Origin: Chitinophagales bacterium
GTDB taxonomy: Bacteria > Bacteroidota > Bacteroidia > Chitinophagales > JADIYW01
Direction: 5' to 3'
DNA: 64,000 nt
Assembly: GCA_023957235.1 (NCBI GenBank)
Contig: JAMLHI010000002.1
Span: 139,836-203,835 of the forward strand
In this document: piece after piece, positions 1 through 10,509 of the stretch
Layout of the letters: each line of letters starts with the position of its first letter
How positions within the stretch are numbered: the stretch's first letter is position 1
Program-made: the position numbers and the translations under genes
Notes under the pieces: model-generated
What the model saw: only the letters and a program-made list of their open reading frames with translations
What the model was told of the DNA's origin: nothing
Databases searched by the model: none

Positions 1-395
1 TTACCGTAGAGGAGAAACACAAGATCATTCAGGAGTTAATTTCTACTCAATGTACCAAGGTGGAGATTTGGGAGAAATACACTGGTGAAGAACAAGAGCA
101 CGGGCAGTTGCTTCGCTGGATGCGACAATTAGGCTACAATACTGGAATCAAAACCAGAAGACCTAACTTTGTATCAAATCTATATCCAATGGTACAGAAA
201 AAAATCAAACCAGACAGAGCAACTAACAATGATGATGAATCATTTGATAACCTGCAATTAAAAAAGCGAATAGTGGAATTAGAAAAGCAATTAAAAGATG
301 CAGAGCTAAAAGCAATTGCTTTCTCTACAATGGTAGATGTTGCTGAAAAGGAGTTTAAAATTCCGATAAGAAAAAAGTTCAATACCAAACCATAG
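1..395 (+). CDS. IS3-family transposase OrfA (5' partial)
   Basis: The frame is open from the first bases of the window (reading TVEEKHKIIQELIS before the first internal GTG at 60), so the true start is upstream. OrfA proteins of IS3 elements are about 100-130 residue DNA-binding subunits with an N-terminal helix-turn-helix (only partly present here) and a C-terminal leucine-zipper-like coiled coil; the stretch LQLKKRIVELEKQLKDAELK at about 250-320 is that coiled coil. It ends at a TAG at 393-395, five bases before the OrfB start codon. A slippery heptamer near its 3' end can shift ribosomes into OrfB. It carries no catalytic residues of its own. Confidence 0.85.
   Translation, partial: TVEEKHKIIQELISTQCTKVEIWEKYTGEEQEHGQLLRWMRQLGYNTGIKTRRPNFVSNLYPMVQKKIKPDRATNNDDESFDNLQLKKRIVELEKQLKDAELKAIAFSTMVDVAEKEFKIPIRKKFNTKP
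371..377 (+). promoter_or_regulatory. Programmed -1 frameshift slippery site (A AAA AAG)
   Basis: In the OrfA frame the codons read AAA AAG at 372-377, preceded by A at 371, giving the classic X XXY YYZ heptamer A AAA AAG. A -1 slip here continues in the frame that begins GTT at 377 and stays open through the OrfB ATG at 401, producing an OrfAB fusion (..RKK|VQYQTIEAMKSN..). This is the established way IS3 elements make their active transposase. Seen directly as sequence; the frameshift itself is inferred from the family. Confidence 0.75.
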
Positions 396-400
396 AAGCC

Positions 401-1324
401 ATGAAAAGTAATTTTTCACACATAGGATTAGCCAAGCTATGTGGATGGTTTGGTATCAGCAGACAGGCTTATTATCAAAACAATTGGGAAGGAATCTCAA
501 CTACCTTGGAAGAAGATTTGGTAATACAACGAGTAAAAGAAATCCGTAAAAAACATCGAAGAATGGGAACACGAAAACTATATGAAATGTTACAACCATT
601 CCTACTTGAACATCAAATAAAAATAGGCAGAGATGGATTATTCAACCTACTGTCTTCCAATCATTTACTCATAAGGAAAAGAAAGCGGAGGATACAGACC
701 ACTAACTCTTACCATTGGCTAAGAAAGTATCCCAATCTAATACGAGAATTTGTACCAACAGCTCCAAACCAGCTATGGGTGAGCGATATCACTTACTGGA
801 AAATTAACACTGGCGAACACCTTTATATCAGCTTGATTACCGATGCCTACTCACATAAAATTGTAGGCTATCAGGTAGCTGAAACAATGGAAGCCATAGA
901 AAGTATTGAAGCTTTGCATAAGGCTCTCTCTGCCTTGGGGGCAGAGAGCCTTATGAATCTTATCCATCACAGTGACAGAGGCATTCAGTATTGTAGCCAT
1001 GCTTATGTAAAGTTATTACAGGACAATGGTATAAAAATTAGTATGACCGAAAATGGAAATCCTTTAGAAAATGCAGTAGCAGAAAGAATAAACGGAATTA
1101 TTAAAGATGAGTATTTAGAAACGTATGACATTAATAATATCAATGAAGCCAAGACACTACTCAAAGACATAGTGAATTTATATAACAGCGAAAGACCTCA
1201 CATGAGTATCAGTAATTTGACACCAAATCATATTCATCATTCAAAAACCAAGATAAAAATAGAAAGATTATGGAAGAATTATTATCGAAAAAATCCTACT
1301 ATTGTAAACCCAAATCAGGACTAA
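401..1324 (+). CDS. IS3-family transposase OrfB (DDE integrase)
   Basis: A 307-residue integrase-core protein. The N-terminal HTH_21-like part (VKEIRKKHRRMGTRKLYEML) is followed by an rve domain with the catalytic triad visible as WVSDITYW, HHSDRGIQY and NAVAERINGIIKDE (the Glu of AER). This matches the length and order of IS3-group OrfB proteins. It is translated either from its own ATG or as the second half of the OrfAB frameshift product. No stop or frameshift interrupts it, so the copy may be active if the left end is intact. A GC-rich hairpin sits inside the gene at 920-952. Confidence 0.92.
   Translation: MKSNFSHIGLAKLCGWFGISRQAYYQNNWEGISTTLEEDLVIQRVKEIRKKHRRMGTRKLYEMLQPFLLEHQIKIGRDGLFNLLSSNHLLIRKRKRRIQTTNSYHWLRKYPNLIREFVPTAPNQLWVSDITYWKINTGEHLYISLITDAYSHKIVGYQVAETMEAIESIEALHKALSALGAESLMNLIHHSDRGIQYCSHAYVKLLQDNGIKISMTENGNPLENAVAERINGIIKDEYLETYDINNINEAKTLLKDIVNLYNSERPHMSISNLTPNHIHHSKTKIKIERLWKNYYRKNPTIVNPNQD
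920..952 (+). repeat. GC-rich hairpin inside orfB
   Basis: AAGGCTCTCTCTGCC (920-934) faces GGCAGAGAGCCTT (940-952); the arms pair over 13 bp with a 2-nt bulge and a loop of about five bases. It is far more GC-rich than the surrounding gene and stays in frame (coding LSALGAES). It could slow transcription or translation or be a captured short repeat; no function is assigned. Confidence 0.6.
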
Positions 1325-1389
1325 AAATGAATTGTAAACTTATAACAGAATTAATCTATTAAACTGTAAACTTTTTTTAGGACGAGTCA

Positions 1390-1757
1390 ATTATACAGCA
1401 ACAAATGCTGTTCGGGGTGGTGTTGGTGCTGGCATGTATAATACGGAGCGTATAATAGCTAATCAGGGTGGCGGAAACTACGCAGCCCAGTCATGTGCCA
1501 ACTATCAAGGTGGGGAATATGGAGATTGGTATCTTCCCTCAAAAGAAGAATTGAATCTAATGTATCAAAATCAAACAGCTATTAATACCACTGCAACAGC
1601 CAATGGTGGTAGCGGTTTTGCTATTGCCGTCTATTGGAGTAGTACGGAGCACGCCGACGATGATTCCAGGGCGTGGGTCTTCTACTTCGGCAATGGGTTT
1701 ACCTACTACACCAAAAAGTACGATACAAACTATGTGCGTGCTGTTCGGGCTTTTTAG
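1390..1757 (+). pseudogene. C-terminal fragment of DUF1566/Lcl-type protein, DGR target, truncated by the IS
   Basis: Directly after the IS right end the frame reads NYTATNAVRGGVGAGMYNTERI and continues to a TAG at 1757. The motifs GDWYLPSKEELNLMY, YWSSTE and YVRAVRAF are the hallmark of DUF1566 (Lcl_C), a C-type-lectin-like fold often used as the displayed variable protein of Bacteroidota diversity-generating retroelements. The N-terminal half and start codon are missing, presumably left on the other side of the IS. An internal ATG exists at 1434 but the homologous frame starts before it. Functional expression is unlikely unless transcription comes out of the IS. Confidence 0.82.
1640..1750 (+). 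other. Probable DGR variable region (VR)
   Basis: Between the conserved YWSSTE and VRAVRAF blocks the codons are unusual for this AT-rich genome: many end in C (cac gcc gac, tcc, gtc ttc tac ttc ggc, acc tac tac acc, tac, aac). In DGRs the template carries AAC/AAT codons and mutagenic reverse transcription changes only the adenines, leaving NNC codons exactly like these. The residues concerned (HADDDS, VFYF, FTYY and so on) sit where Bacteroidota DUF1566 templates encode Asn/Gln runs. The template copy is not in this window, so the exact VR limits are approximate. Confidence 0.65.
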
Positions 1758-1813
1758 CTATTTAACAATTTAACTATTTACAGCGAAGCGGTCGATTTTT
1801 GTTAGGAATGAGT

Positions 1814-1840
1814 GCAATATAAAGCTCGCTTTAATATTGC
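1814..1840 (+). repeat. Hairpin downstream of the variable region
   Basis: GCAATATAAAGC (1814-1825) and GCTTTAATATTGC (1828-1840) pair with one bulged A around a 2-nt loop. It lies about 55 bases after the VR-containing frame ends and just before the avd remnant. DGR target sites are known to carry a hairpin/cruciform a short way after the VR that helps target recognition; this could be its remnant, or a terminator without a U-tract. Confidence 0.5.
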
Positions 1841-1881
1841 CGAGTGACGACACAAAATCACGCAAGTATTTTTTTTGAAAT

Positions 1882-2165
1882 ATGGCATTATATTACGAAT
1901 TGCAGGTTTTTAAGGATGTTTACACACTTGTTCAGAAGGTGTTTTTTATACACAAGACTTTCCTCGTGAGTACAAATACACTCTTGGTCAGGATATGAAG
2001 TGAGATGCCATACAGCTCGTAAGAAGTATTTATAGAGCCAATAAGGCGAAAGACAAGGTTGTTTGTTTAGAAACTTTTTTAGACGACTTTGAGTTGCTCA
2101 AATTTGAAATACGCCTTTGTGGGGATATAAGAATTTTAGCAATAAAAAAAACAACGAAACGCTAA
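1882..2165 (+). pseudogene. avd: Degenerate avd (DGR accessory variability protein)
   Basis: From ATG 1882 the frame reads MALYYELQVFKDVYTLVQKV and ..FIHKTF, then one base is missing near 1960-1963; the next frame continues PREYKYTLGQDMK, hits TGA at 2001-2003 (where an Arg CGA would fit), and goes on DAIQLVRSIYRANKAKDKV, then FLDDFELLKFEIRLCGDIRI to TAA at 2163-2165. Joined, this is the four-helix-bundle family that includes Avd, the small protein that forms a ring and binds the DGR reverse transcriptase. Its place just after a DUF1566 target gene is the standard DGR order. One frameshift plus one nonsense codon make it a pseudogene. Confidence 0.8.
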
Positions 2166-2168
2166 CAT

Positions 2169-2277
2169 GCTACTACTCGCAAGCCGAAAGAATCGCTTCG
2201 ATTAACATTTCTCTTTAGGAAAAAGCCTTATATTCGTATCTAAGTTTAATGTTAAAAGTCGGCCAGCGAGTAGTAGC
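2169..2277 (+). repeat. Long nested stem-loop (about 109 nt)
   Basis: Three nested pairs are visible: GCTACTACTCGC (2169-2180) with GCGAGTAGTAGC (2266-2277), GCCGA (2183-2187) with TCGGC (2259-2263), and TTAACATT (2202-2209) with AATGTTAA (2248-2255). The outer 12-bp stem is perfect. The element starts four bases after the avd remnant stop. It resembles a folded recombination site (attC-like) or a structured RNA; no template repeat is recognisable in it. Function unknown. Confidence 0.65.
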
Positions 2278-2588
2278 TGCCCGTCAGGCTGTAAAAAAAG
2301 TCCTTTTCTTATAAAATACCCCCCGTAAAAATCTAAGAAATGCCTGTATTTGCTTTTTAAGAAAACTTATTTTTAGGCTGCTATACTTTGCTGGTGAAAA
2401 TAAAAGGGCTTAAAATGGCTGAAATAAAGTCTCTTTTCTACAAAAAGGCCACCTCTTGGGTACTTCGGTGTACACACGATAAATACCCATAATTATAGGC
2501 ATTTTTTGTACAAATATTATACTTTAAAAATACAAAATTTTTACTACTTTTGATTGAGTCAGTGAAAGATTTTTTTTTACGGATTGCC
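2278..2588. other. Intergenic stretch without recognisable gene
   Basis: AT-rich and non-coding in all frames. I looked for a DGR template repeat (Asn-rich AAC runs matching the VR) and for reverse-transcriptase motifs and saw neither. A TAnnTTTG-type box (TACTTTTG, 2545-2552) points toward the toxin-antitoxin genes but is 125 bases away and lacks a convincing -33 element. Confidence 0.5.
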
Positions 2589-2676: not shown

Positions 2677-2928
2677 ATGGCTAAAAATACATCGATTTTG
2701 TTGGGCGACTATTTTGACAACTTCATAAACCAACAAATTAAAAGTGGAAAATATTCTTCGGCAAGTGAAGTTGTACGAACAGCATTAAGAATGTTTGAAT
2801 ATGAAGAATCTAAAAAAACGGAATTGATAAACGAACTGAAAAAAGGAGAAAAATCAGGTTTCGTAAAAGAGTTTAACAAAGAAAACTTCCGAAAAGAACT
2901 TCATCAAAAACATCTTGCTGAAAAATGA
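2677..2928 (+). CDS. ParD-like (ribbon-helix-helix) antitoxin
   Basis: An 83-residue protein. The N-terminal part (NTSILLGDYFDNFINQQIKSGKYSSASEVVRTALRMFE) is the ribbon-helix-helix fold with the type II antitoxin ParD signature GKYSSASEVVRTALR. The acidic/basic C-terminal tail (ELINELKKGEKSGFVKEF) is the toxin-wrapping segment of the family. It binds and neutralises the ParE toxin encoded next and represses the shared promoter. The genes overlap by ATGA (2925-2928), typical of translationally coupled toxin-antitoxin operons. A palindrome at 2640-2654 is the likely operator. Confidence 0.88.
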   Translation: MAKNTSILLGDYFDNFINQQIKSGKYSSASEVVRTALRMFEYEESKKTELINELKKGEKSGFVKEFNKENFRKELHQKHLAEK

Positions 2929-3227
2929 ATTACAAAATAAGCGTTGAAGCAAAGAATGATATTGAGAAGATTTGGCTTTACACTTTTGAGAATTGGTCGC
3001 TCAAACAAGCTGACCGCTATTTTGATTTGATAATGGACGAAGTTGAATACATTACTGAAAACCCAAATTCCGAAAAGGATTATAGTGATGTAAGAAAAGG
3101 ATACTTGAGAAGTCGAATAAAGTCGCATTTCATTTTCTACAAAGTGAACAAAAAGCAAAATGAAGTAGAAATTATTAGAGTTCTACACCAAAGCATGGAC
3201 ATTGAAAACAAACTGAATGTCGAATAA
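2925..3227 (+). CDS. ParE/RelE-superfamily toxin
   Basis: A 100-residue protein with the compact RelE/ParE fold. Motifs seen are YKISVEAKNDIEKIWLYTFENW at the start, the central YLRSRIKSHFIFYKV strand and the C-terminal VEIIRVLHQSMDIE, which is the family ending (IxRVLHxxMD). ParE members poison DNA gyrase, while RelE members cut mRNA. Pairing with a ParD-type antitoxin favours ParE. Its start codon overlaps the antitoxin stop, and an intrinsic terminator follows at 3264-3300. Length and motifs are intact, so the module is probably functional. Confidence 0.88.
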   Translation: MNYKISVEAKNDIEKIWLYTFENWSLKQADRYFDLIMDEVEYITENPNSEKDYSDVRKGYLRSRIKSHFIFYKVNKKQNEVEIIRVLHQSMDIENKLNVE

Positions 3228-8822: not shown

Positions 8823-10509
8823 ATAATTTTCCAGGATTCATGATATGATGAGGATCTAATGTAGATTTTATATTTTGCAATACTTTCTTCGTCAATACAT
8901 CAGTCTTCTCAAGATACCATTTACGATGGTCTGTACCTATACTATGGTGATGAGACACCGCCCCACCTTCAGACACTATAGTATTTGTAACGATATTTTT
9001 AATTTCTTCCCATTGCTGATATTCACTTCCTTTTTGCTGAGCTGTAATGACTGTAAAATAAATACTAGCAGAAGATGTATAAACATGTGAAACATGGGCC
9101 AATATAACCCCTTTTTCTTTTCCAAAAGCATCTGACATTAGAAGATTTGCCTGAACTTTCTTGCGCAATGCATCTACTTTATCCCAAGGAACAACAGTTT
9201 CCATTGTATCTACAAATACACCTCTTTCTACTAAATCATCTCTCAAATAAGGTAAACCAAATCTAGAATGCTCCCATTTTTTTCCAATACCATCACCAAT
9301 ATCAAATCCTTTATTTTTTTCAAATATTGAAGCTGCTAATTTTCTATTCAATTCAGCTTCAGATTGGGTACCATCAAAGCGCACCATCATTATTGTTGGC
9401 TTTTCAATTCCTTTCAATTTCAATACAATATTAGAAATCAATGATTTAACATCTGCTAAGACCCCAACTTCACTGGATACAAGTTTTAAATATTCAGTTT
9501 CTAATTCATCTGAAAATCTGGCTACTGTAGGAAAAATATCCTTCTGAACTAATTGTTTAAGGGCATCTACTCCATGCTGAAAAGAAGGAAACACTGCAAC
9601 CAACCAACTTTTATACTGCGGTAATGGGTGAATGCGAACTTTTGCTTCAGTAATTATACCCAAAGATGCTTCAGAGCCTAGAAATACAGATTTCAAATTG
9701 ATTCCTTCTGCATCTCCTTCATAATTACCAACTGATATTTCACCGACAGGAGTAGCTATACGCATCGAGATAACAATCTCATCTATCCTCCCATAGCCAG
9801 ATGATTCCTGACCAGCAGAACGTGTAGCCAACCAACCTCCAAGTGTTGAATATTCAAAAGATTGAGGAAAGTGTCCCAAAGTATATCCTTTGGCATTCAG
9901 ATGTTTTTCAATTGCAGGGCCATAAATCCCTCCTCCAAAAATTGCAGTATGATTGGTTTCATCCAAATTTAATAACGCATTATTGAGAGACATATCTATA
10001 ACAATTCTTGGTAAATCATTTTTGGGCAAGCTAAAAGCTCTTACTACATTACTCCCACCACCAAATGGAACTATTAAAATTTTATGTTCTAAACAAACCT
10101 TTAATACCTGCAAAATTTCATCGTGATTTTTAGGAAATACCACTACATCTGCAACTTCAATCGGATCATCTGACAATGCAGACAAGACATCAGGATAACT
10201 TTTCCCTAATGCCTTCTTTAGCCGTACAGATAGAGAATTTTCTATTCTAACATGAGAAACTTGCTGTTTCAAAATATTGTAAACATTAGCAGCTCTTTCT
10301 TCATTTGTATGAATAGAAAAAGAAGACTTGAGTGGATGGGTATGATCAAAAGGCTGATTCCATCTATCTTTTAAAAATTGATGTAAAATAGGAAAGTCTG
10401 TTAAAGATTTCCTTTTATACGCATCACCCCATTTCCACCAGTCACTTTCACTATTCGTTGTTGTCATATCCGTATTCATATTTCTTTTAAAGTTAGAAAA
10501 ATCAATCAA
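8809..10509 (-). CDS. AGPS-like FAD-linked oxidase/synthase
   Basis: A 566-residue vanillyl-alcohol-oxidase-family flavoprotein. A PCMH FAD-binding domain runs from about residue 117 (EVADVVVFPKNHDEILQVLK, VPFGGGSNVVRAF, GGWLATRSAGQESSGYGRI) and a FAD_oxidase_C domain follows. HHH at residues 520-522 (AVSHHHSIGTDHRKWYLEK) and the ending DPHHIMNPGKL resemble alkyl-dihydroxyacetonephosphate synthase rather than glycolate oxidase. AGPS swaps an acyl chain on DHAP for a fatty alcohol, the committed ether-lipid step. GlpD, which makes DHAP, follows in the same operon, and a thioesterase precedes it. D-lactate/2-hydroxyacid dehydrogenase activity remains possible. Starts at MIDF, MNTD or MTTT are all possible. 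Confidence 0.8.
   Translation of the reverse strand: MIDFSNFKRNMNTDMTTTNSESDWWKWGDAYKRKSLTDFPILHQFLKDRWNQPFDHTHPLKSSFSIHTNEERAANVYNILKQQVSHVRIENSLSVRLKKALGKSYPDVLSALSDDPIEVADVVVFPKNHDEILQVLKVCLEHKILIVPFGGGSNVVRAFSLPKNDLPRIVIDMSLNNALLNLDETNHTAIFGGGIYGPAIEKHLNAKGYTLGHFPQSFEYSTLGGWLATRSAGQESSGYGRIDEIVISMRIATPVGEISVGNYEGDAEGINLKSVFLGSEASLGIITEAKVRIHPLPQYKSWLVAVFPSFQHGVDALKQLVQKDIFPTVARFSDELETEYLKLVSSEVGVLADVKSLISNIVLKLKGIEKPTIMMVRFDGTQSEAELNRKLAASIFEKNKGFDIGDGIGKKWEHSRFGLPYLRDDLVERGVFVDTMETVVPWDKVDALRKKVQANLLMSDAFGKEKGVILAHVSHVYTSSASIYFTVITAQQKGSEYQQWEEIKNIVTNTIVSEGGAVSHHHSIGTDHRKWYLEKTDVLTKKVLQNIKSTLDPHHIMNPGKLFDEQ

Follow-up and report, generated by a model that had tools for sequence, protein, structure and literature searches.

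The window analysed here, a stretch of 64,000 nucleotides from a Chitinophagales genome, starts within an IS3-family insertion sequence on the plus strand (window 1-1389). The element measures 1467 bp in total, the first 78 bases lying upstream of the window, and orfB occupies window 401-1324. Its transposase matched the transpos_IS3 profile over the cut-off (E = 6.8e-73), and the inverted ends and short target duplication of the IS3 family are present as well. Alignment with the other copies in the genome set the left end at L032:12759 and the right end at window 1389. Both flanks carry ATT, a 3-bp duplication of the kind seen at four of the seven IS3 copies compared (the window copy included) and at none of L015, L016 and L017. 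Over the whole 1467 bp the window copy is identical to these last three, and the insertion therefore appears to be recent.

The IS3 element cuts the target gene of a diversity-generating retroelement (DGR) in two, and the reading frame is open in both pieces. The C-terminal piece (window 1390-1757, plus strand) starts at the first base past the IS3 end, terminates with a stop codon at 1755-1757 and contains an Lcl_C (DUF1566) domain (Pfam, E = 2.6e-16), the sole match to this domain in the genome. The front piece, found on the same contig but beyond the edge of the window (L032:12080-12758, corresponding to C10:139079-139757), forms a stop-free frame of 226 codons whose start resembles a signal peptide as judged by eye. 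The gene preceding the target encodes a Por_Secre_tail sorting domain. The original prediction took the sequence from 1390 on for the C-terminal fragment of an Lcl/DUF1566 target, in agreement with the Lcl_C match; the front half is nevertheless present upstream, and the break by the IS3 element had gone unmentioned.

When the N-terminal part of the target was used as query, 7988 of 7992 scored proteins matched with E ≤ 0.001. A precomputed Lcl_C domain was found in 108 of the 120 matches listed, and the best relatives among these were P0126 and P0127 (83-85% identical); in a sequence search of the PDB, the C-terminus of P0127 matched HbP1 (8q4e, E = 1.2e-9). A scan of contigs from genomes with the target piece gave one locus, in a Cloacimonadota MAG, where a second target start comes after a target with 64% identity. 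The lack of avd and reverse transcriptase (RT) genes there means little, since the contig ends about 590 bases further on.

The variable region (VR) of the window target, with its mutagenic-homing end, spans window 1632-1757 on the plus strand (5′ limit approximate, with no template of its own for comparison). Variability was assessed in an alignment of 110 rows, comprising the window piece and 109 of the 119 homologues listed, after 10 homologues without a VR-like end had been dropped. An entropy of at least 3.0 bits was reached in 15 of 121 columns, 14 of them inside the VR and one just ahead of it. Thus, the target is recognisable and hypervariable in its C-terminal VR, as expected for a decayed DGR, and its homologues vary in the way the original prediction had implied. 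Among the 29 codons of the window VR, which were picked after inspection, 15 end in C, compared with 13.7% of codons in three neighbouring genes (p = 1.3e-6) and 19.5% in the N-terminal part of the target (p = 1e-4). Compared with a foreign template, that of the related genome G361 described below, 22 of the 46 mismatches of the window VR fall on template adenines, a weak excess (p = 0.02).

A former target-site hairpin, its stem having one mismatch by eye, follows the VR at window 1780-1792 on the plus strand. A perfect post-VR hairpin of at least 5 pairs was found at 16 of the 19 loci compared (out of the 29 surveyed below), including four with broken avd, and was absent from the window, L079 and L116. 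The stretch between hairpin and avd (window 1792-1881) is about 75 bases longer than in G361 and has a near-perfect palindrome inside.

An avd pseudogene is located at window 1882-2150 on the plus strand, separated from the target stop by 124 nt. Its Avd reading is spread over two frames, with a frameshift near 1945 and an in-frame stop at 2001-2003, and its 3′ end is missing; according to tblastn with the relative P0001 (335 member sequences), residues 1-90 of 113 are retained. By hand count the relic is identical to P0001 at 84 of 88 in-frame residues, and since P0001 is intact, intact avd copies exist elsewhere. For family searches the relic was translated in its own frame, in pieces and with X at the stop. 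It passed the 40-bit cut-off of Pfam bAvd (E = 2.1e-12, 47.9 bits) and matched NCBIfam DivGenRetAVD under the 80-bit cut-off (E = 1.2e-10, 41.7 bits), which the intact P0001 likewise fails to reach (68.6 bits). Taken alone, the last 53 amino acids matched bAvd under the cut-off (1.4e-5), and the first piece of 38 amino acids gave no family match. Avd remains directly 3′ of the target, another mark of a decayed DGR, are thus present. The Avd profile search proposed for 1882-2165 turned out positive with bAvd, and the break in avd that had been read from the sequence is accounted for by the frameshift, the stop and the lost 3′ end. The predicted start at 1882 holds as well, but Avd homology ends at about 2150 and not at 2165. 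No P0001 match was found in viral contigs; plasmids gave 1 record with 28% identity and phages 15 records, all below 60%. A sequence search of the PDB with Avd yielded no useful match (best E = 0.27).

In place of the avd end, at the break itself, lies an inverted-repeat element of roughly 120 bp (window 2155-2284, no strand assigned) with 19-base arms at 2169-2187 and 2259-2277. It has two copies in the genome, the second, 88-89% identical, at C2:68261-68390. The position at which one would expect template and RT is taken by a dispersed repeat of some 300 bp (window 2282-2584, no strand assigned). Its copies in C13 and C1 are 90-91% identical over about 300 bp, and the repeat was located at L034:43-337, L035:1489-1790 and, in part, at L032:11377-11472. 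The copies have a common AT-rich promoter-like core, and those inspected stand 5′ of open reading frames, including two parDE pairs and, in the target operon, the gene with the sorting domain. An intact parDE pair lies directly past the relic (window 2677-3227; ParD, E = 1.6e-24; ParE, E = 4.2e-18). A reading of the repeats after avd as an integron was rejected: TIGR02249 matches stayed under the cut-off (best 103 versus 265 bits), and the best of them resembles an ordinary tyrosine recombinase by eye.

A complete counterpart was found in G361, a genome of the same order. The locus (L078:6910-11682) comprises a full target, avd, template and DGR RT, together with a target-like N-terminal open reading frame and a gene whose start resembles that of the sorting gene upstream of the window target. 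Across 143 bases its template (L078:10280-10422) and its VR (9403-9545) show 23 differences, of which 22 fall on template adenines, and its Avd is about 81% identical to P0001. The window locus shares with G361 the order of target and avd, the preceding gene with a similar start and the end of the VR, the sequence from 1726 on, which runs past the VR end, being 88% identical over 76 nt. In contrast, template, RT, an intact avd and an unsplit target are features of the G361 locus. That target followed by avd is the standard start of a DGR, as originally stated, agrees with this complete element starting in the same way.

The draft assembly containing the window comprises 3,004,017 bases in 17 contigs and is listed as 100% complete. 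RVT_1 matched at four places, all four of other RT classes: an RT-Cas1 fusion preceded by Cas6, a retron-like RT that stays below the NCBIfam cut-offs, and Drt3a and Drt3b, which form a pair. All four (L001 in C1, L002 in C13, L003 and L004 in C17) look like defence RTs. With the DGR RT of G361 as query, no RT other than Drt3a (22 bits) and the RT-Cas1 fusion (48 bits) was retrieved. By DNA similarity, no second VR copy was detected in the assembly among 6 of 6 scored candidates (next best match 21 bases, E = 0.5), nor in a further search in which 40 of 60 candidates were scored. Neither template nor RT was found 3′ of the avd relic, as had already been noted from the sequence, and the genome-wide search for a DGR RT recommended at that time gave none of DGR type. 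Elsewhere in the genome no DGR remains were found; another bAvd match, in C14, scores 143.9 bits as S23-type protein versus 40.9 as bAvd, and six S23-type (PF05635) matches exist outside the locus. Altogether, an active DGR would possess a DGR-type RT, a template repeat (as sought by DNA similarity, which a far-diverged copy could escape) and an intact Avd, none of which was found here. As searches of the 3.0-Mb assembly gave neither template nor DGR-type RT, the VR is likely to be frozen.

We also asked how avd, RT and target are combined at related loci. Within the order, P0001 matched with E ≤ 1e-10 in five of 396 genomes; the avd genes of G000, G054, G243 and G393 have in-frame stops and that of G361 has none. 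Whole-genome searches of six genomes with the G361 RT detected a DGR RT in two of them, G361 and G051, but not in the four whose avd is broken. Only DGR-like RTs are excluded by this result, since a group II RT of G054 with 25% identity escaped the search. In the phylum, P0001 matched in 23 of 395 genomes, 17 of which belong to one genus. The five loci were pooled with 24 further ones, giving 29. Avd was counted as intact when the alignment covered at least 100 of 113 residues and contained no stop (17 loci) and otherwise as broken (12 loci), and an RT as long when the alignment covered at least 350 residues, again with no stop; at the phylum loci RTs were sought within 1.5 kb. A long RT adjoins 13 of the 17 intact avd loci and 0 of the 11 assessable broken ones, L123 being left out because it ends at a contig edge (Fisher p = 6.7e-5, which is too small given that many loci come from one genus).

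The intact avd loci without a long RT are L110, where the RT lacks its first 182 residues, L104 and L117, with none within 1.5 kb, and L115, with an RT fragment of 82 residues and a second piece of 34 residues. Among the 11 broken-avd loci, RT remains consist of a single 37-residue piece at L122. As far as the fetched stretches show, the target is open to a VR-like end at 8 of the 12 broken-avd loci; of the others, L114 shows 50 amino acids, the window target is split, and L081 and L112 show no target. The corresponding number for intact avd is 13 of 17, with 54 amino acids at L105 and none, by motif, at L110, L118 and L120.

Some of these loci show further features. L115 and L122, both in G542, have only RT fragments, and an asparagine-rich, template-like frame still follows avd. 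At L104 (G596), no stop separates the avd frame from the HTH antitoxin-like frame into which it continues (228 amino acids, by eye). At L116, L121 and L119, all of genus g207, the front to which the Lcl_C end of the DGR target is fused looks kinase-like or TIR-like by eye, which brings to mind the targets in conflict systems reported in PMC10907252.

In an intact DGR, as established for the Bordetella phage element BPP-1, RT and Avd copy template RNA into error-prone cDNA, and the resulting adenine mutations enter the VR. By analogy with the complete G361 element, the same mechanism may once have operated at the window locus. We consider it very probable that the locus is the remnant of a DGR that was likely complete, with the target now split, avd broken, and neither DGR RT nor template found. 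The original reading as a decayed DGR is upheld by the Avd family matches, the variability of the VR among homologues and the complete counterpart in G361. The loss of RT and template, whose place repeated elements now occupy, probably came first, and avd would have decayed afterwards. The frame of the target is open on either side of the insertion, so selection probably maintained the target for some time as an invariant surface protein, until the apparently recent IS3 insertion severed it. The parts, their lesions, the clean insertion and the unsuccessful search for RT and template are observations; past activity, this order of events and the lack of a product today are inferred.

The locus might instead be a former satellite, a target copied along with an avd stub and the recognition site, which was diversified in trans by a complete DGR elsewhere in the genome, lost since. 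Such an arrangement can be seen in G741, whose genome holds both a target with an avd stub of 64 residues (L121) and a target-avd-RT locus (L101). Some stubs may accordingly be satellite targets served in trans, and the window locus, whose avd also lacks its 3′ end, may have been one of them. However, most of avd is present (1-90 of 113), it has point lesions in addition to the truncation, and the rest of the genome yielded no DGR remains, which makes this origin rather unlikely. Even less probable, to a degree that we regard as slight, is that the DGR still works in trans, an option left by the original prediction, with RT and template on a separate replicon or missed because of a gap in the assembly. 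The 17 contigs, with contig ends at repeats (C13:43), would leave room for it, yet the assembly is listed as 100% complete, and the failure to find a DGR RT or a second VR copy makes action in trans unlikely; moreover, as the target is split, a mutated VR would lie outside any whole protein.

Lcl_C proteins also occur outside DGRs, and with the six S23-type matches in the genome one could imagine that the locus never was a DGR at all, just an Lcl_C gene beside an unrelated four-helix gene of the S23 type. This is barely credible, as the avd relic passes bAvd and has no S23 match, the VR end and the next bases are common to G361, and the target homologues are hypervariable in the VR. Our preferred reading remains that of a remnant of a DGR.

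Across loci, the likely order of loss is RT first, avd next and target last; an early stage of decay would be represented by L110 and by L115, where avd and target are intact and the RT is broken. The survey, being anchored on avd, is blind to loci that lose avd first, and the order is biased accordingly. In the window itself, two small lesions in avd stand against none in about 1044 target bases, a difference expected by chance in about 4% of cases and only suggestive. In two congeners, for which the amylase gene is the one clear match at this end, no such locus was found beside that gene, and a complete cassette in the ancestry of this lineage is therefore presumptive. Of the open reading frames compared, G001 shares the amylase gene and one weak match (28.7%) and G002 has the amylase in two pieces, which leaves the empty site unreadable in the genus.

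Degraded DGRs and targets without machinery have already been described in cyanobacteria, with the suggestion that DGR components are removed there as soon as a good variant has arisen (PMC7517822). The window locus belongs to this class and, taken singly, is an ordinary relic. As in the cyanobacterial cases, components are lost, transposase genes stand beside the remains and a target occurs without RT; there, however, the RT is left alone (Anabaena sp. 90) or the target alone (all3226) (PMC7517822), whereas at the window locus the target remains in two pieces, together with an avd that is recognisable as a pseudogene. With the BPP-1 DGR the locus shares a target with VR, avd and a post-VR hairpin (PMC3240598; layout, PMC6642488), the structure of that hairpin being required for efficient retrohoming in BPP-1 (PMC3240598). 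Unlike the window locus, BPP-1 belongs to a phage, is active and possesses both RT and template. In the accessible parts of the open-licence literature, we found neither avd pseudogenes used as markers nor an order of loss.

DGR surveys anchored on the RT will miss elements without one. Our data suggest that dead DGRs can be recognised by avd remnants beside Lcl_C targets, and that the decay of avd accompanies the loss of the RT while targets often persist. Marking by avd remnants would allow permanent shut-offs of diversification to be counted, and it could then be asked which variants were kept. Only tentatively do we extend this to a fixed course of decay throughout the phylum, in which the mutagenic RT disappears before avd and selection preserves the final target variant as an invariant gene; if this were true, target-plus-avd relics would be fossils of frozen variants, marking where diversification stopped paying.
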